Shown here: piece after piece, positions 20,123-64,000 of the stretch
Layout of the letters: each line of letters opens with the position of its first letter
How positions within the stretch are numbered: the stretch's first letter is position 1
Source of the DNA: Thermodesulfobacteriota bacterium
GTDB lineage: Bacteria; Desulfobacterota; Desulfobacteria; Desulfobacterales; Desulfosudaceae
DNA length: 64,000 nucleotides
Assembly (NCBI GenBank): GCA_040753795.1
Contig: JBFMDX010000001.1
Location: forward strand, 372,001-436,000
Reading direction: 5' to 3'
Made by a program: the position numbers and the translations under genes
The notes under the pieces: generated by a model
The model's database searches: none
Told to the model about the DNA's origin: nothing
What the model saw: only the letters and a program-made list of their open reading frames with translations

Positions 20123-20581
20123 ATGCCAGATATGCCGGTGGTCAAGTTCATCCGGGTCAGGCCTGAAACCGACGGCGACATCGCCCTGCCGGAATACATG
20201 ACCCCGCATGCCTCGGGAATGGACTTGCGGGCCGCGGTGGCAGAGGACCTGGCCATCGCTGCCGGCGCCGTTGCCCTGATTCCGACCGGGTTCGCGGTCG
20301 AACTGCCGGTCGGGTTTGAGGCCCAGGTCCGGCCGCGGAGCGGTCTGGCCATCAGGCATGCCATCGGCATCGTCAACGCTCCCGGCACCATCGACGCCGA
20401 TTACCGCGGCGAAATCAAAGTCGCCCTGATCAATTTCGGGAAAAATCCCTACACCGTCCGCCGGGGAGATCGGATCGCGCAGATGGTCATCCAGTCCGTC
20501 TGCAGCCCCACAATCATGCTGGTCGAGGCCCTTTCTTCCACCAGCCGTGGAGAGGGCGGTTTCGGCCATACCGGGTTTTGA
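20123..20581 (+). CDS. dut: Deoxyuridine 5'-triphosphate nucleotidohydrolase (dUTPase)
   Basis: Hydrolyses dUTP to dUMP and pyrophosphate. About 152 residues with the five trimeric-dUTPase motifs: ASGMDLRA (1), RPRSGLA (2), GIVNAPGTIDADYRGEI (3), RRGDRIAQMVI (4) and the C-terminal RGEGGFGHTG (5). A GTG-GTG-ATG run allows three starts; the ATG at 20123 is preferred because GAGGAG ends 5 bases before it. It follows pnp by 33 bp. Confidence 0.95.
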   Translation: MPDMPVVKFIRVRPETDGDIALPEYMTPHASGMDLRAAVAEDLAIAAGAVALIPTGFAVELPVGFEAQVRPRSGLAIRHAIGIVNAPGTIDADYRGEIKVALINFGKNPYTVRRGDRIAQMVIQSVCSPTIMLVEALSSTSRGEGGFGHTGF

Positions 20582-20645
20582 GGAGAATACGGCGGGCCGG
20601 ATGGTGTCAGGCAATGGTCAAGAAGACTTTATCAGGGGGAGGGCG

Positions 20646-21449
20646 TTGATAACATCGGCAGCAGACATTGAAAGCCCCACCGGCCTTTCCGTTTGCGTCC
20701 TGGCCAGCGGCAGCCGGGGCAATAGCCTGTTTATCTCGGATGGTCAAACTTCTCTCCTTATCGACGCTGGTCTTTCCGGTTCCGAAATAGAACGCCGCCT
20801 GGCGTCCCGGGGGATCGATCCCCGGGTATTAACGGCCCTGGTGGTTTCCCATGAGCACCAGGATCATGTCCAGGGAGTCGGGGTGATGGCCCGTCGTTAT
20901 CGCCTGCCGGTGTACATCAGCCGCAAAACATGCCTGGCGGCCCGGTCATGCCTGGGACGAATAGAATCGTATCGTTATTTTGAGTGCGGTGAGGCCTTTC
21001 ATATCGGTCAGATCGATATCCATCCTTTTTCCCTGTCCCATGACGCGGCAGATACGGCCGGTTTTACCTTCCGCCGGGACACAGCCAAAGTGGGGCTGGC
21101 AACGGACCTGGGGGTGGCCACGGCCGTTGTCAGGGAAAACCTCAAAGGTTGTCAGCTTCTGATTCTGGAGGCCAATCATGATCCGCATATGCTGATCGAC
21201 GGGAGCTATCCCTGGCCCGTTAAACAGCGTATCAAGGGAAGAACCGGTCACCTCTCCAATAACGATTCCAGAGAGCTGCTGCTGGCGGTAAACCATGACC
21301 GTCTGGCCCATGTGGTCCTGGCCCATCTGAGCCAGGAAAACAATACCTGTGAAAAAGCCCTTGCCATGGTGGGGCAGGCGCTGACGTCTTCCCGCGCCAC
21401 CCTCTCGGTAGCGACACAGCATCAGTGTGGTGATCTGATCCGCATCTGA
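20646..21449 (+). CDS. Metallo-beta-lactamase-fold hydrolase (YycJ/WalJ-like)
   Basis: Dinuclear metal hydrolase of the MBL superfamily, with the opening SVCVLASGSRGNSLFI strand, the HxHxDH motif VSHEHQDHVQGV, and later AHLSQENNTCEKA. The LSxxNN-type segment HLSNNDSRELL is typical of the YycJ subgroup, which is linked to nuclease or phosphodiesterase activity. The start is uncertain: the frame opens at 20547 (overlapping dut), an ATG lies at 20601, and a TTG at 20646 has a GGAGG site close by. The TTG gives the shortest extension before the family start and is used here with low certainty. Confidence 0.85.
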   Translation: MITSAADIESPTGLSVCVLASGSRGNSLFISDGQTSLLIDAGLSGSEIERRLASRGIDPRVLTALVVSHEHQDHVQGVGVMARRYRLPVYISRKTCLAARSCLGRIESYRYFECGEAFHIGQIDIHPFSLSHDAADTAGFTFRRDTAKVGLATDLGVATAVVRENLKGCQLLILEANHDPHMLIDGSYPWPVKQRIKGRTGHLSNNDSRELLLAVNHDRLAHVVLAHLSQENNTCEKALAMVGQALTSSRATLSVATQHQCGDLIRI

Positions 21450-21463
21450 CCCGTGTATTATTC

Positions 21464-21492
21464 TTGCCGTAATCGTCGGAATTGAATATAAT
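21464..21492 (+). promoter_or_regulatory. Sigma70-type promoter of the kinase-like gene
   Basis: TTGCCG (21464-21469), a 17-base spacer and a perfect TATAAT (21487-21492). It is in the 89-bp gap before the kinase-like gene, so that gene is probably transcribed independently of dut and the MBL gene. The predicted 5' UTR is about 40 bases with no clear ribosome site. Confidence 0.65.
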
Positions 21493-21538
21493 ATTTATAA
21501 TTATTGGGTTTTTATCAATGAAGATGGCGTAAAGCACA

Positions 21539-23491
21539 ATGCCTGATATGATTGAACAGAATCCGGGCGATGTTGAGGTTTCGCCCAAGGCCGACAATGA
21601 ATTGACGCTGGAAGAAAAAGTCATTAATTGTTTTGCCGATCTGTTTAAAAAGCAGCTGGGTCTTAAAAAAAGAGCCGGTGCCGAAATAGCCTTCCTGGAA
21701 TCCAGTCGTTTCAACCCCAAGGTGAAAACCTATACGGCAAAAGTCAAGACCGGCCTTAACGCCTGGAGGTCCCGACGGTTCACCGTCGGACCTATCGGCG
21801 AGGATTCCGGCGCTAAAAGCAAATGTTTTCTGGTTATCTACGACAACAAGATTGTCGTGAAAGTCCCGCCCACGCCTGTTACCGATTTTGATGCCTATAT
21901 CAACAGCATGAAAAAGGAGCGGCGGATTGTCGACAAGCTCCATCCGCGGGAATGTATTATTCCCAGCCTGGGGGTTATTCTCAATAAATACCAACCGTTT
22001 CTTGAGGCTACGGCTTCCGCTGAAGGGACGATGGAGGAAAGAGACCAGGAAAAGGTATGCGAGGCGTGGCTCAGGGAAAATCCGGAGTTCCAGGAATATT
22101 TTATGATCAACGGTGGTTTCGCCTATTTCATGGATCTGGCCAAGTATGTATTTCTGGCGGACGCCGTATCCCTGTTTCATAATATTGAAGGCGGCCTTCA
22201 GGATGAACTGTTAAGAGACCCTACTATTATTGATGACTTTGATAAATTCGAGGGCCGCTACGGCCTGGAAAACGTTCAGATCGCAATGGATCTGAAAAGT
22301 GTTTATGCCGAATTCGAGACGCTTCTGCGCAAAATGATGATCCGGTCCAGCGTCTCGCCGTCATTGCTGCTGTATAAAACCCAGGAGTGGTTTTTTGTGC
22401 ATGTGGCCGGGCTGCAGGTCGACAAGGACGAGAGGGATTTGACCCCGGACTTTGTCGCGCAGCTCAACGCGCTGCTCAAGGATATCATAGGGAAAAACCG
22501 GGACGTGATTGACGAATACCGGCAGATGGTCGGCGAGTCGATCCAGGCGGTGAATTTTTCCCAGCACAAGATGTATATGGAGGGACTTGTCACCAACGCC
22601 CTTGAATTGCTGGCCTGGCTGAAACACAAGGGGGTGGCCATCCGCGACATTAAGCCCGACAATCTGCTGGTTGCCGGCGACCCGGACCGGTATCCGTCCT
22701 TTCTGTCTTTTCCGGCGACTTATAAGATCGGATTGATCGATGTTGAAACCGCCGTTGATTTTAATCCTGAAGACGGAAAGATCGTCCAGCCCCAGCTGGG
22801 CGGCACCCCGTTTTACGCGACGCCGGCGAACATGTTCGCCAACAAGACCCTGCTGGCGGGTTACGGTGATCTGCCCCGGGCGCTTTTTTTGCAGGACTGG
22901 TTCGCGACCATGGCCATGATCTATGGTATTATCATCAATGATTACCTTTTTAACCGTACGGCCAAGCAGCTGGTGGTGCTGACCCGGAAAATTCAGCTGG
23001 CCCTGAAGGCCAAGCAGCCGCCGGAGGCCATTCTCAAGGAGGCGAACAATATTTTCTGGGCCGCCGCCGAAGAAGAATTCCAGGAAAATTTGAGCAAAAA
23101 CGCCAAACGATTGCGAAACATCCGGGTCGCCCTGCAGGACAATGTCCGGCAGTTGTTTATCACGGAATTTTCTCTGGAGAGCAAAAGGGCCGACAAGGCG
23201 ATCAAAAAACTTATACTCCAGCAGGCATTATTCAAAAGCCAGCAGAATCAGGAGCAGTTGTATCTCGGGTCGGCCGATCGGATCAGGGAAGTCATCGACA
23301 AAATCAAAAACAAGCCTGATGTCAATCCCCGGTCCCTGGACCAGCTTCAGCAGATCATGGAGTTAAAACAGAGCGTGGCCGGTTATAAGGAAATTATCGG
23401 TCTGATCCAGGGGAAAGGCAGCGAAATGCCCGCCCATTATCTGCTGGAGGTCATGTTCCAGCTGGCCTGCGATTTTATGAGACGTCTGTAG
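21539..23491 (+). CDS. Divergent eukaryote-like protein kinase domain protein
   Basis: Soluble 650-residue protein with a recognisable but split kinase domain. K108 in IVVKVPP matches the ATP-anchoring lysine. IRDIKPDNLL (D370, N375) is the catalytic loop with Ile in place of the HRD His. LIDVET (D401) replaces DFG, and GGTPFYATPAN matches the activation/P+1 segment. About 262 residues separate K108 from D370, against roughly 95 in a standard kinase, so about 165 extra residues are inserted. Residues 460-650 are predicted helical and charged, with no transmembrane segment. The key acidic residues are kept, so activity is possible. It has its own promoter. Its 3' end overlaps the convergent nitrilase gene by 55 bp. 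The function is unknown. Confidence 0.8.
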   Translation: MPDMIEQNPGDVEVSPKADNELTLEEKVINCFADLFKKQLGLKKRAGAEIAFLESSRFNPKVKTYTAKVKTGLNAWRSRRFTVGPIGEDSGAKSKCFLVIYDNKIVVKVPPTPVTDFDAYINSMKKERRIVDKLHPRECIIPSLGVILNKYQPFLEATASAEGTMEERDQEKVCEAWLRENPEFQEYFMINGGFAYFMDLAKYVFLADAVSLFHNIEGGLQDELLRDPTIIDDFDKFEGRYGLENVQIAMDLKSVYAEFETLLRKMMIRSSVSPSLLLYKTQEWFFVHVAGLQVDKDERDLTPDFVAQLNALLKDIIGKNRDVIDEYRQMVGESIQAVNFSQHKMYMEGLVTNALELLAWLKHKGVAIRDIKPDNLLVAGDPDRYPSFLSFPATYKIGLIDVETAVDFNPEDGKIVQPQLGGTPFYATPANMFANKTLLAGYGDLPRALFLQDWFATMAMIYGIIINDYLFNRTAKQLVVLTRKIQLALKAKQPPEAILKEANNIFWAAAEEEFQENLSKNAKRLRNIRVALQDNVRQLFITEFSLESKRADKAIKKLILQQALFKSQQNQEQLYLGSADRIREVIDKIKNKPDVNPRSLDQLQQIMELKQSVAGYKEIIGLIQGKGSEMPAHYLLEVMFQLACDFMRRL

Positions 23492-24387
23492 CGATAATAC
23501 CATTTTCCGTGAAAGTTCTGATACCACCAGGCCAGGCGGATCGGCGCCGGGAGATCGGCTATCCAGAACCGCCTGGAGAGATTTTCGGAAGGCGGCTGCC
23601 GCTTCACGGCGATATCAGCCATGACGAACCCTTCACCCTCTTCGCGTTTCATTCTCGCCAGGACCGTTCCGGTGGCGTCCACGATCTGTGTCTCTCCCAG
23701 ATAAAAAGAGTCGTAGGGGAAACCGGGCAGCAGGGGCGTCTGGCCGTGAAATGTTCCCGCGTGCGCCGCGTGGATCACCGGGCAACCGGTCAGGCGGGCA
23801 AACCGGGCCGGTGTTTCCGCCATGATCGATCTATTCTCTTCCTCTACGGATTTGGAAAAACCGGGCAGGCGTTTTTCCGGCAGGGACCACCAGCAGGATC
23901 CGCTTACGATCAGATCCACCTGGTTGATTAGCCGCCGAACGGTCCGGGAGCGGACCAATTCCCAGCACATGGCCACGCCGATGTCCCCGACCGGGGTGTG
24001 TAGCACTCCGTCGTCGGATCCCCCCCGGTAGTAGCAGTTTTCCCACATGGTGGGCTGGTCTTTGTCGTGCCGGAAGGTCTGTCGATCCGGAAAGACCAGA
24101 AAAAAAGTATTGCGATGGTGCCTCCCGGTCTTTGTGATCAGAGAGCCGCCGATGATGCCGTTGTGTTTTGCGGCAAGTTCGTGGAGCATTCGCTGGGCAG
24201 GCCCTCCGGGGCCCTCGGCAACGGTGTTCATGACCGGATGAAACCCCATGGCGGAAGGGAAAAATTCGGGCAGAATGACCAGTTCCGCCCCCTGTACAAA
24301 TGCCTTCCCGGCCAGGTGCCGGGCGGATCGGATGTTTTTCTCCCCATCGCCAAGCGCCGCGGTCATCTGAACGGCTGCCACCCGCAT
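23437..24387 (-). CDS. Carbon-nitrogen hydrolase (nitrilase superfamily)
   Basis: Amidase/nitrilase-fold hydrolase of 316 residues. The catalytic triad is visible as Glu in ILPEFFP, Lys in RHDKDQPT and Cys in VAMCWELVRS. The start is the ATG at 24387, preceded by a strong AAAGGAGG site; the frame is open further upstream but without homology. The substrate cannot be told; an amide or ureido compound is likely. The C-terminal tail (about 35 residues, rich in Arg, Tyr and Trp) lies partly inside the convergent overlap with the kinase-like gene. It is divergent from apbE across a 245-bp intergenic gap that has no clear promoter by eye. Confidence 0.88.
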   Translation of the reverse strand: MRVAAVQMTAALGDGEKNIRSARHLAGKAFVQGAELVILPEFFPSAMGFHPVMNTVAEGPGGPAQRMLHELAAKHNGIIGGSLITKTGRHHRNTFFLVFPDRQTFRHDKDQPTMWENCYYRGGSDDGVLHTPVGDIGVAMCWELVRSRTVRRLINQVDLIVSGSCWWSLPEKRLPGFSKSVEEENRSIMAETPARFARLTGCPVIHAAHAGTFHGQTPLLPGFPYDSFYLGETQIVDATGTVLARMKREEGEGFVMADIAVKRQPPSENLSRRFWIADLPAPIRLAWWYQNFHGKWYYRYRRLIKSQASWNMTSSR

Positions 24388-24632
24388 TTTCCGCCTCCTT
24401 TCATTGACAAACAGTGCATTTATTTTACCGTCTTGCCATAGCAAACCAGAGCCATATTTTTTTGTAAAGGCGATTTTGAAAAGTGGCAAAGGGTTCCGGC
24501 GTTCAAGATTAATTATTTTTATTCCCCTTAACTTCTCAACCCTCGACCTCTTTTCATTTCTTGCGGTTTTCTGATCGATCGCATACACTTGGCAGCCTGA
24601 AAAGGAATTATATAACGAATGAAAAAAGGGAA

Positions 24633-61113: not shown

Positions 61114-61929
61114 CTATGGCTTAATTATTTGACGAATTGATTTCTGGAATCGGGAGAGAAGGCCCACGTTTTTTGCCACTTTTTTGATTTTAATCACAAT
61201 GACCGTGATGTTATCCAGTCCGCCCATCAAATTAGCCAGCTCCACCAGTTTCTGGCAGGCGCCAACCGGTTTTTCAACGGTGACCGTGTCCCGGATCTCA
61301 TCAAGAGACAGCATGTCGGTCAGACCGTCCGAACTGATGACGATGGTGTCGCCTTCCTGACATTTCCTTTCAACGGTGTCCGGTGCCACACTGGTTTTCG
61401 TGCCCACAGCCTGTGTCAGCATGTGCTTGAATTCATTATCCAGGGGCTCCCCGTCCGGATTGGCCGCCGCGGCTGCGGAGGCGACCGTATGGAGCGTGGA
61501 CACCATCTCGATCTGATCGTCGCGGACGAGAAAAATCGGGCTGTCGCCCACATTGGCGGTGATAAATGTTCGGCCGGTCAAGAGAACCGCTGAAATGGTC
61601 GTCCCCATCCCGGCGTAGCGGGGGTTGTTGGAGGCCAGGTCATATACACTCCGGTTGGCCAGATGCAGGCCGGCCAGAAGCCGGTTGGCCTGCCTGGAAA
61701 CTCCCCGGATTTTTATCGGCAGTTCTTCGGGATGTTTTTGTGACAGATTCCGGATATAACTGGAAATGGTTTCAACGGCCACGCGACTGGCGACTTCTCC
61801 GGCCGCGTGCCCGCCCATGCCGTCCGCCACGACATAAAGGTTATGCGCGTCGTCAACGACAAAACTGTCCTCATTGGCTTTTCTTTTTCTGCCGGTGTCG
61901 GTCAGACCCGCGGACTCAACAATCAGCAT
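61114..61929 (-). CDS. PP2C-family Ser/Thr protein phosphatase
   Basis: Metal-dependent phosphatase of 271 residues. The conserved metal and catalytic motifs are RKANEDSFVVDD, VVADGMGGHAAGEVAS, ANVGDSPIFLV, ISSDGLTDMLS and LMGGLDNITVIVI. It ends 14 bp after the CHASE2 kinase gene starts its tail in the same orientation, so the two are probably a kinase-phosphatase pair. A basic C-terminal tail of about 20 residues follows the domain. Confidence 0.93.
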   Translation of the reverse strand: MLIVESAGLTDTGRKRKANEDSFVVDDAHNLYVVADGMGGHAAGEVASRVAVETISSYIRNLSQKHPEELPIKIRGVSRQANRLLAGLHLANRSVYDLASNNPRYAGMGTTISAVLLTGRTFITANVGDSPIFLVRDDQIEMVSTLHTVASAAAAANPDGEPLDNEFKHMLTQAVGTKTSVAPDTVERKCQEGDTIVISSDGLTDMLSLDEIRDTVTVEKPVGACQKLVELANLMGGLDNITVIVIKIKKVAKNVGLLSRFQKSIRQIIKP

Positions 61930-61943
61930 ATGTCGCTTTCCGG

Positions 61944-64000
61944 TTATTTGCCATCCTGCGCTTTCTTGGTTTTGGCAGCGTCAATTTTCTGGCCGAGTAT
62001 TTTCAAGTGCTGCGCCATCTGGCCGGCGGTCTGGTAGCGCGCTTCTGTCTTTTTGGACATGGCCTTGTTGATGATCGCCACCAGCGGTTTGACGATTTTG
62101 GGGTTGATCTGCTGCGGGTCCGGGTGCGGCTCGTTTAAAATTTTGTGCATCAGTTCCGCCGGGCTGCTGCCCTTGAAGGGAACTTCACCCGTGAGCAGTT
62201 GAAACATCATGACGCCCAGGGAAAAAATGTCGCTGCGGCCGTCCACTTTTTTGCCGGTGATCTGTTCCGGCGACATGTAATAGGGAGTGCCCTTGATGAT
62301 GCCGGTCTTGGTTTGAGACGAGGCCGTGATCCGGGCGATGCCGAAGTCGGTGATTTTGATCTTTTCGCCTTTAAGCAGCATGACGTTGGCCGGCTTAATG
62401 TCGCGATGAACGATTCCCTTCTGATGGGCATAGTCCAGGCCGTCGGCTATTTCGGCGATGTACTGGATCACCTTGCGCATGGGCAGCAGATTTTTTTTCT
62501 TGGTGTATTTATCCAGGTCTTCGCCTTCCAGGTACTCCATGGCGATGTAAGCCAGGTCATGCTCCTCTCCGGCATCGTAAATGGTTACGATGTTGGGGTG
62601 GGACAGGGTGCCGGCGCTTTCGGCTTCGCGGAAGAATTTGGCTTTCATCTGTTTAGCCTCTTCCTCGTCAAAATCTTCCGAGAACTTCACGGTCTTGATG
62701 GCCGTGGTCCGGTTGATCCGCGGATCCTGGCCGAGATAGACCGTGCCCATGGCTCCCTTGCCCAGCTGCTTGAGGATTTCATAACGTCCCAGGGTCGGCC
62801 GGACGCCCGCCGACGCGGTGGCGGCCAGGTTGTCTCCGCCGCCGCCGAAGTCGCCGCCGAAGACCATGGTTTCACTGGCGATGTTCAGCTTTTTCTTTTT
62901 TTCCGCCACGTCCTTGAACTTGCCGTCGTGGTCTTCGATGTAGCCGAATACCGCCGCCGCCTTGTTGAATTGCCTTTTGCGCTCGTAATCCAGGGCAAGG
63001 TTATAAAGGATATCCTTCATTTCGCTATCGACCGGTACTTTTCTGAATTTGTCGAAGGCCATGTCCAGCATTCCCTGGGACTGGAACGATATACCCAGCA
63101 TGCGGTTGGTCTGGGCGGATTCGCCCTCGACCTTTTCCTTGCCGGTTTCGGCCATGAAATAACTAATCGTGACCACGCCGATATAGCCGATGACCAGCAG
63201 CAGGAGCGGATAGATTAACTGGACCCATATTCCCTGGATCAGGAAGAGGTAAGCGGATCCGCCGATCAGCAGGCACAGAACCCCAAAAAACGACGCGCCG
63301 GCAATGACGGCCTTGAGCCGGGGGAGGATTAGCGCCACAAACAGACCCAGTATCAGAACGGCGATCAGTTCGCTGACCATTGCCAGCGGCATTTCTTTGA
63401 TAAACTGTCCGTTTAGAACGGACCAGATCACATTGGCGCTGAAATCACCGAAAGAAGTGTCCGGAGAGACCGGCGTGCTCAAGGTGTTGGCCAACCCCTT
63501 GGCCGAAAGAGACAGCAGGACGATTTTCCCTTTGAATATATTCAGGGGGATCTTATCGTTGATGACATCGAAGAAGGAGTAGTGCTTGAAGGCGTCCTCC
63601 CCGGCGCTGTAATTGATCAGCATTTCGGAATAGGCCGTGAGCGGGATAACCATGTCCTTTATTGCTAATGATGAGCCGATGTCGGCCGTAATATCGGCAG
63701 GCATGACTTTCAGGTACCTGGCGGCAATGACCAGGTAATAGGAGGGGATGTATAGGTCATTGAACTGATAAAAGAGCCGCTCCCGGCGATAGGTTCCATC
63801 CAGGTCCGGCGCGCTGTTGATGTGTCCCATGCCCGCGGCCGCCTGCCTGAATGCCGGGATCGGCAGGGTCGCCTCGCTGGCCCGGGGGCAGAGAATGCCG
63901 GCATCGGGCTGAGTGACGGTGATCGCTTGGGCGGCCAGAACCGGATCAATTTGCGTTTCACCGGCTCCGGGGATCAGGTCGTCTTTGAAGAAAACGGGCA
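61944..64000 (-). CDS. CHASE2-domain transmembrane Ser/Thr protein kinase (5' end beyond window)
   Basis: The gene runs off the right edge. In the reading frame upstream of the first internal Met (63830), 56 more codons are open and encode typical CHASE2 sequence (for example LPIPAFRQAAAGMGHINS across the Met), so that Met is internal. About 684 residues are visible: an extracellular CHASE2 sensor, three membrane segments and a short helical TPR-like region (MLDMAFDKFRKVP). A Pkn-type kinase domain follows with GKGAMGTVYLG, AIKTVKF, HRDIKPANVML, DFGIAR and GTPYYMSPEQ, and then a short Lys-rich tail. All catalytic residues are present. It lies 14 bp upstream of the PP2C gene. Confidence 0.93.
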   Translation of the reverse strand, partial: PVFFKDDLIPGAGETQIDPVLAAQAITVTQPDAGILCPRASEATLPIPAFRQAAAGMGHINSAPDLDGTYRRERLFYQFNDLYIPSYYLVIAARYLKVMPADITADIGSSLAIKDMVIPLTAYSEMLINYSAGEDAFKHYSFFDVINDKIPLNIFKGKIVLLSLSAKGLANTLSTPVSPDTSFGDFSANVIWSVLNGQFIKEMPLAMVSELIAVLILGLFVALILPRLKAVIAGASFFGVLCLLIGGSAYLFLIQGIWVQLIYPLLLLVIGYIGVVTISYFMAETGKEKVEGESAQTNRMLGISFQSQGMLDMAFDKFRKVPVDSEMKDILYNLALDYERKRQFNKAAAVFGYIEDHDGKFKDVAEKKKKLNIASETMVFGGDFGGGGDNLAATASAGVRPTLGRYEILKQLGKGAMGTVYLGQDPRINRTTAIKTVKFSEDFDEEEAKQMKAKFFREAESAGTLSHPNIVTIYDAGEEHDLAYIAMEYLEGEDLDKYTKKKNLLPMRKVIQYIAEIADGLDYAHQKGIVHRDIKPANVMLLKGEKIKITDFGIARITASSQTKTGIIKGTPYYMSPEQITGKKVDGRSDIFSLGVMMFQLLTGEVPFKGSSPAELMHKILNEPHPDPQQINPKIVKPLVAIINKAMSKKTEARYQTAGQMAQHLKILGQKIDAAKTKKAQDGK

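Follow-up and report, generated by a model that had tools for sequence, protein, structure and literature searches.

A divergent, largely Desulfobacterales-specific family of candidate Ser/Thr protein kinases combining ePK-type loops with an Asp-x-Glu metal loop

Introduction

Bacterial receptor kinases that are anchored in the membrane and have FHA proteins as partners form a known class, and in the PknB and PrkC types the kinase comes first. The choline/methylthioribose kinase group has no activation segment of the ePK kind. In PKA numbering the F-helix Trp of the Hanks-type kinases (ePK) stands at D+2 of the helix-F Asp, while K72 lies 19 residues before E91 and 94 residues before D166. The parts of PMC4702295 dealing with consensus residues count this Trp and the HRD-Arg among those of ePKs. 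According to the same source, in its treatment of small-molecule kinases, these enzymes carry a substrate insert that follows helix E and precedes the catalytic loop, the Glu of the DPE motif in methylthioribose kinase (MTRK) coordinates MgATP, and replacement of the DFE-Glu of choline kinase (ChoK) by Ala lowers kcat 10-fold. The portion of PMC1821047 concerned with kinase-like families beyond the ePK cluster reports that the DFG Gly is missing from most of them, with Glu in its place in ChoK/FadE, where the DxE change accompanies that of K72 to Arg, and that HRD His or DFG Gly can be absent in working kinases.

Here we analyse a kinase-family gene within a stretch of 64,000 nucleotides from a Thermodesulfobacteriota bacterium (GenBank assembly GCA_040753795.1, contig JBFMDX010000001.1, positions 372,001 to 436,000), which we call the window. 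The best reading of the encoded protein is an active Ser/Thr protein kinase that would join ePK-type catalytic and P+1 loops to the Asp-x-Glu metal loop of choline and methylthioribose kinases.

Results

The kinase-family gene and its surroundings

The open reading frame proposed in an initial annotation is borne out as a real gene encoding 650 amino acids at the place claimed (Table 1). A codon check finds K108, D370, N375 and D401 at the positions given there (codons at 22640-22648 for I368-R369-D370 and from 22661 for N375; the codons of K108 and D401-V402-E403 are in Table 1), and the translation reads IRD for HRD (368-370) and DVE for DFG (401-403), again as described. A promoter of its own had also been claimed. 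The corresponding consensus match ends 46 bases 5' of the ATG; since the interval 21300-23700 contains four promoter-like sites compared to a mean of 1.4 (sd 1.0) in shuffled sequence, we regard it as weak evidence.

Directly 5' of the kinase gene lies a metallo-beta-lactamase-fold gene (Pfam; 20547-21449, + strand), and the counterpart of the kinase gene in genome G032 (L114) is preceded by a gene whose product has an N-terminus similar to that of this neighbour. On the other side a convergent carbon-nitrogen hydrolase reading frame (23437-24588, - strand) overlaps the 3' end of the kinase gene by 55 bases. The same window also harbours an ordinary kinase/phosphatase pair at 61114-63998 (- strand), in which the gene of a PP2C phosphatase comes immediately after that of a CHASE2 Ser/Thr kinase of canonical type (Pkinase 203 bits).

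Table 1. Positions of the features of the kinase-family gene, in window coordinates unless a locus is named
Feature	Residues	Position	Strand	Remarks
Kinase-family gene	1-650	21539..23491	+	ATG start, 650 codons before stop, no N-terminal membrane segment
Sigma-70-like promoter TTGCCG-17-TATAAT		21464..21492	+	consensus match only, 10/12
Gly/Ser-rich loop, presumed nucleotide loop	84-96	21788..21826	+	G87 78/80, S94 79/80
K108, beta-3 lysine	108	21860..21862	+	80/80 rows; strand 104-109 in model
E127, helix-C acidic residue	127	21917..21919	+	E 59, D 18 of 80; helix 117-134
Extra region, mostly helical, hinge/helix D to helix E	~206-344	22154..22570	+	boundaries inferred from secondary structure
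Catalytic loop IRDIKPDN	368-375	22640..22663	+	R369, D370, K372, N375 80/80
Metal-binding D401-V402-E403, DFG equivalent	401-403	22739..22747	+	D 80/80, E 80/80; function predicted
P+1 loop QPQLGGTPFYATP	417-429	22787..22825	+	G422, T423, P424 80/80
Presumed helix-F start D453-W454	453-454	22895..22900	+	both 80/80
Helical C-terminal part	472-647	22952..23479	+	AlphaFold2 model
FHA gene beside kinase (other loci)		L105 6689-7435; L108 6754-7500; L112 6473-7219; nine other loci		FHA homologue

Catalytic residues and motif conservation

Conservation was analysed in an alignment of 80 proteins, comprising the window protein and 79 relatives, with a mean column identity of 43%. One further family member (L071, from 3235) was excluded because its gene is broken by an in-frame stop; it may be a pseudogene or an assembly error. 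Invariant in all 80 rows are K108, R369, D370, K372, N375, D401, E403 and T404, and likewise G422, T423, P424, D453 and W454. Position 127 is Glu or Asp in 77 of the 80 rows and is spaced 19 residues from K108 in every one. The family loops RDxKPxN and GTPx(Y/F) are of the Ser/Thr protein-kinase type throughout the alignment.

Other kinase motifs are altered. The position of the HRD His is occupied by Met (44 rows), Ile (20), Leu (15) or Val (1) and never by His, that of the DFG Phe by Val (68), Phe (10), Leu (1) or Ile (1), and that of the DFG Gly by Glu in all 80 rows, with Gly in none. Of the activation-segment pattern GTxxY...APE, GTPx(Y/F) is kept, and the APE Glu is missing from every row. 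At D+2 of helix F (position 455) we find Tyr (28), His (20), Gln (19) or Phe (13) and no Trp; the invariant W454 sits at D+1 and not at the position of the ePK F-helix Trp. The canonical kinases of the same genome also do without the D+2 Trp (for example SDIFSLG and TDLYSLG). Because HRD and DFG are changed in all 80 rows, the alterations are fixed traits of the family and not as the decay of one copy; going by the alignment, the IRD and DVE of the window protein are not decay.

Predicted fold and extra residues

An AlphaFold2 model computed with the 80 sequences has a pLDDT of 90.3 and a pTM of 0.88, the sole segment below 50 being residues 1-19, and displays a two-lobed protein-kinase fold. 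Its N-lobe runs through strands 48-55, 63-71 and 75-86, the Gly/Ser loop 87-94, strands 95-100 and 104-109 and the helix 117-134, which carries E127; we take the strands 48-55 and 63-71 of the model as preceding a putative beta 1. Residues 84-96 are the presumed nucleotide loop by their place between strands 75-86 and 95-100. Structure prediction had been suggested as a check, with a missing N-lobe or a K108 far from the active site counting against a kinase. In the model an N-lobe is present, K108 follows two strands joined by the Gly/Ser loop, and the next helix bears the acidic residue 127 at the spacing of 19 seen in all 80 rows.

The model was also compared with solved structures. The best PDB match in Foldseek reaches an E-value of 6.3e-3 (prob 1.00) with none at E<=0.001 and with low TM-scores, and the best 50 of 736 matches (E<=10) are all protein kinases or complexes containing one. 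VIA-align places CDK2 on top (Z 14.4, 240 residues aligned at a high rmsd of 4.6 A), with other protein kinases tied behind.

From K108 to D370 the window protein spans 262 residues, and compared to the 94 of PKA this leaves ~168 extra residues, in agreement with the insertion of about 165 residues initially reported. The model suggests that these do not form one block: helix 117-134 is followed by an extra segment, a hinge strand 196-199 (F197-M198), further helices, the helix 321-364, the catalytic loop, and a strand 396-400 leading to D401, which would place part of the extra residues at ~139-190, from helix C to the hinge, and most of them at ~206-344. Helix 321-364, under a tentative helix assignment, continues up to the catalytic loop with no insert in between. 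D401 and D453 are 52 residues apart, a stretch that includes the ePK-like P+1 loop. The helical C-terminus of 190 residues that the initial annotation had described is helical in the model over the range given in Table 1; it is not all extra, since part of it should correspond to the usual G/H/I helices.

Profile and database matches

The Pfam Pkinase profile (PF00069) matches the window protein over residues 348-494 with 17.6 bits, below the cut-off of 31.7, while the paralog in its own genome passes the same gathering cut-off with 35.6 bits. Of 24 family members scanned, 23 match Pkinase at E<=0.01 (best 8.7e-9); together with the catalytic residues invariant in 80 rows this argues for a kinase likeness exceeding chance. 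The match to six further kinase domains from this genome, compared profile to profile, reaches 96.8% (E 3.1e-10) and spans residues 343-474, the C-lobe only. A single-sequence search of the PDB with the window protein yields nothing convincing (best E 0.25), and the profile search reaches 4.6e-5, within the C-lobe.

Pkinase and LanL are the frequent matches among the 24 members. LanL is the most frequent NCBIfam similarity (18 of the 24 at E<=0.001, best 6.3e-9); on the window protein it covers residues 328-436 only and, as its 18.3 bits are far under the cut-off of 650, we rejected an identity as lanthionine synthetase. An anti-phage kinase was likewise rejected, since the PADLOC matches to PglW and PD-T4-6 are weak and confined to the catalytic loop, and the weak PADLOC matches to ZorA (506-611) and Csf1 (149-270) are taken as chance. 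Across Pfam, NCBIfam and PADLOC no family lies above its curated cut-off or extends over the length of the window protein. The Pfam-A scan of this protein contains no APH or choline-kinase family and, within the limits of HMMER filters that drop most weak matches, no SelO family at E<=10.

Distribution and tree of the family

The genome of the window (4.75 Mb, 41 contigs) encodes one paralog, 69 kb off and 43% identical. On the 3' side of this paralog (G000:C1:466593-473168), frames of 278 and 506 aa show weak Pkinase matches of 20.9-24.7 bits, below the cut-off. At E<=1e-10 the family is found in 85 of 192 sampled genomes of the class, own genome included, and in 74 of the 161 more complete ones. 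Across the phylum the family profile matches 4 of 297 genomes, namely its own, two more of its order and one outside the order; in the class of that outside genome, a second class of the phylum, 7 of 55 genomes match, all within one family. Scanning 84,980 species genomes with profile-derived patterns confirmed 170 relatives, the best 80 of which are labelled with Desulfobacterales genera or families, as unclassified Deltaproteobacteria or Desulfobacterota or, in a few cases, only as 'Proteobacteria'. A single-sequence scan of a genome contig collection found no relative. We rejected a phage or plasmid origin: tblastn at E<=1e-3 gives no match among 50,697 records of phages and 72,556 of plasmids, and no relative was confirmed in viral contigs.

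Two proteins of Desulfococcus sp. 4484_241, L082 and L033 (the latter 52% identical), cluster with the window protein in the tree. Their clade comprises 8 proteins, all lacking membrane segments, and has an SH-aLRT of 92, below the star level of the tool. The nearest relatives of the window gene are L033 and L114 of G032, those of the paralog L082 and L115 of G032. As the two copies each pair with a different protein of these genomes, the duplication looks to predate their split. The distinct kinase group that had been proposed is upheld: the family is conserved, confined largely to one lineage and modelled with a kinase-like fold. Judged against the profiles of Pfam, NCBIfam and PADLOC, it is apparently uncharacterised, and it is found mainly in one order. 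PMC12599244 tells of 42 families of bacterial Ser/Thr kinases already published. Among the literature matches listed, no title describes such kinases in these bacteria.

Membrane-anchored relatives and a barrel domain

Membrane segments were predicted with 19-residue hydropathy windows, assuming the furthest-upstream ATG, which may overextend some N-termini. On this basis the 79 relatives have no hydrophobic segment before the kinase in 21 cases (one of which, L102, starts at a contig edge and has no assignable class), one in 9, two in 40 and three to five in 9. Most of the compared family members therefore look membrane-anchored by sequence, with at least one segment in 58 and at least two in 49 of the 79. 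The solubility proposed for the whole group thus holds for the window protein and its clade of eight rows and does not extend to the family.

The N-termini of 32 sequences, led by L062 (7485-8000) and otherwise 12-40% identical to the lead, were aligned and modelled. Ahead of the kinase the model has, in this order, a first transmembrane helix (TM1), a barrel of six strands (29-71), a stalk helix and a second transmembrane helix (TM2). Its overall pLDDT is 78.8, with ~87-97 for the barrel blocks, and its pTM is 0.48. With Foldseek, Hfq barrels rank first for the barrel (best E 8.9e-3, a weak match). Of the top seven of VIA-align, three are ygdR, a DUF903 lipoprotein and a putative lipoprotein, and the other four are similarly sized structural-genomics proteins without a name, at Z 5.0-5.6, a level below that excluding a merely common arrangement. 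The likeness of the modelled barrel to small lipoproteins would be consistent with an extracytoplasmic location and is no proof of it.

FHA genes next to the kinase

We surveyed the neighbourhoods of 84 loci (80 named loci, the window and three more) with 1006 mechanically called ORFs, some flanks ending at contig edges. The only functionally telling neighbour to emerge from clustering is a gene for an FHA (phosphothreonine-binding) protein. Homologues of one such protein occur in the flanks of 13 of the 84 loci, all among the 80 named, and in 12 of these 80 the FHA gene is immediately adjacent and on the same strand, 10 times upstream and twice downstream. Pfam FHA was confirmed in all four neighbours tested (72.7-88.2 bits, cut-off 20.7). 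The neighbour proteins have a second, similar half, and, on inspection of their alignment by eye, 12 of the 13 have a Thr-Met/Ile motif between the halves (L110 is without it). These sequence features make a phospho-switch adaptor a possible role for the double-FHA-like neighbours.

The twelve FHA-linked kinases fall into two parts of the tree, making up 10 of 12 rows of one clade and 2 of 3 of another, and hence do not represent twelve independent events. Neither the window gene nor its paralog has an FHA neighbour; the genome has two FHA genes at other places, one near a canonical kinase. Being restricted to two tree parts and absent at the window and paralog loci, the FHA link supports the family and not the window copy.

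Discussion

Proposed function

Taking sequence and model together, the window protein probably belongs to a divergent bacterial family of Ser/Thr protein kinases and is itself competent for catalysis. This explains the data best, because the catalytic set is intact, the RDxKPxN and GTPx loops are kept and FHA partners accompany part of the family. ATP and Mg would be held between the lobes via K108-E127 and N375/D401, with D370 as the presumed catalytic base. E403, at the place of the DFG glycine, may help to hold metal or substrate in the manner of the DxE Glu of choline and methylthioribose kinases. R369, K372 and T423 would maintain the ePK character of the catalytic loop, the activation segment and the P+1 loop, so that the acceptor would be a protein Ser or Thr.

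In the commonest relatives, a small extracytoplasmic barrel held between TM1 and, via the stalk helix, TM2 could relay a signal to the cytoplasmic kinase, and in some relatives the double-FHA adaptor encoded next door, which bears the Thr-Met/Ile motif in its linker, may read the kinase output or itself be that output. The window protein would be a soluble version with neither ectodomain nor FHA neighbour gene; its input is therefore probably cytoplasmic, at the helical extra region or the C-terminus. Tentatively, and with more doubt than confidence, the family may be seen as an undescribed and largely Desulfobacterales-specific group of receptor kinases, in which ePK loops are combined with a choline-kinase-type Asp-x-Glu centre, a YgdR/LSm-like barrel between two TM helices drives the commonest form and some members have an FHA output.

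If the enzyme is active, a protein kinase can function with its regulatory DFG glycine exchanged for Glu and its HRD histidine lost, both changes being natural and fixed across the whole family. The receptor-kinase reading, if true, would add an architecture in which the extra domain precedes the kinase to a widespread group of environmental bacteria, and offer a natural test case for the roles of the two residues.

Alternative explanations

Several observations stand against an ePK: His at HRD, Gly at DFG and Glu at APE each occur in 0 of 80 rows, the D+2 Trp is not kept, the Pfam score of the window protein is below the cut-off, the profile-profile match is confined to the C-lobe, the Foldseek matches stop short of E<=0.001 and the CDK2 match of VIA-align has a high rmsd. 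The Asp-x-Glu motif is otherwise found in small-molecule kinases, and an enzyme of the choline, aminoglycoside or methylthioribose type, with the helical extra region and C-terminus forming a substrate pocket, has to be weighed. DxE replaces DFG in all 80 rows, as in ChoK and MTRK (described in sections of PMC1821047 and PMC4702295), and large inserts with a helical C-terminal subdomain are usual there (same part of PMC4702295). The DxE loop and the missing F-helix Trp speak for this explanation, which we consider unlikely: in the model the extra region apparently precedes helix E and does not separate it from the catalytic loop, none of the 80 rows departs from the HRD-Arg, K372 or the GTPx P+1 loop, the Pfam scan of the window protein is free of APH and choline-kinase families, and FHA neighbours and membrane forms fit protein signalling.

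A nucleotide-binding pseudokinase serving as scaffold could account for HRD and DFG motifs altered in every member and for the lost APE Glu. Pseudokinases as defined in PMC12599244 have lost the beta-3 Lys, the HRD-Asp or the DFG-Asp; none of the three is lost in any of 80 rows, and on this ground the explanation was rejected as improbable. The AMPylase-like activity raised in the initial annotation, of the SelO type or as another non-phosphoryl transfer, gained no positive support. Kinase-like folds can run other chemistry, as the passages of PMC12599244 on SelO and SidJ describe, and the DxE and lost HRD His do amount to some active-site change, but the canonical K, E/D, D, N, D set and the Ser/Thr-type catalytic and P+1 loops are intact and FHA genes lie beside 12 of the 80 named loci. 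With the SelO family absent from the Pfam scan (E<=10, within the HMMER filter limits), we rejected this activity as very improbable.

Comparison with known kinase systems

Read as a probable Ser/Thr protein kinase, the window protein and its family resemble Hanks-type kinases (ePK, PF00069) in the model fold, the beta-3 Lys, the helix-C Glu/Asp at spacing 19, the xRDxKPxN loop, the DFG-type Asp, the GTPx P+1 loop and the helix-F Asp. They differ by Met, Ile, Leu or Val for the HRD His, Glu for the DFG Gly, the lack of the APE Glu and D+2 Trp, the ~168 extra residues before the catalytic loop and, for the window protein, a score under the Pfam cut-off. Like the choline/methylthioribose kinase group (small-molecule ELKs), they have a metal loop of the DxE type, large inserts and a C-terminal part that is helical, whereas the ePK-type catalytic and P+1 loops and the extra region apparently before helix E set them apart. 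As the family keeps the beta-3 Lys (K108), which is Arg in ChoK/FadE, this parallel is only partial.

The kinase domain of the class III/IV lanthionine synthetases (LanKC, LanL) is also resembled, with LanL matched by 18 of 24 members, but on the window protein the match is limited to 328-436 and far under the cut-off. SelO, the pseudokinase AMPylase, shares the kinase-like fold (as described in part of PMC12599244), in contrast to the profile level, where no similarity was found (Pfam, E<=10), and to the canonical active-site set that the family keeps. Finally, hydrophobic segments by the kinase domain and, in some members, an adjacent FHA gene recall the membrane-anchored receptor kinases with FHA partners. 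Unlike in PknB and PrkC types, the membrane segments and the extra domain, a barrel weakly resembling both YgdR/DUF903 lipoproteins and Hfq, precede the kinase.
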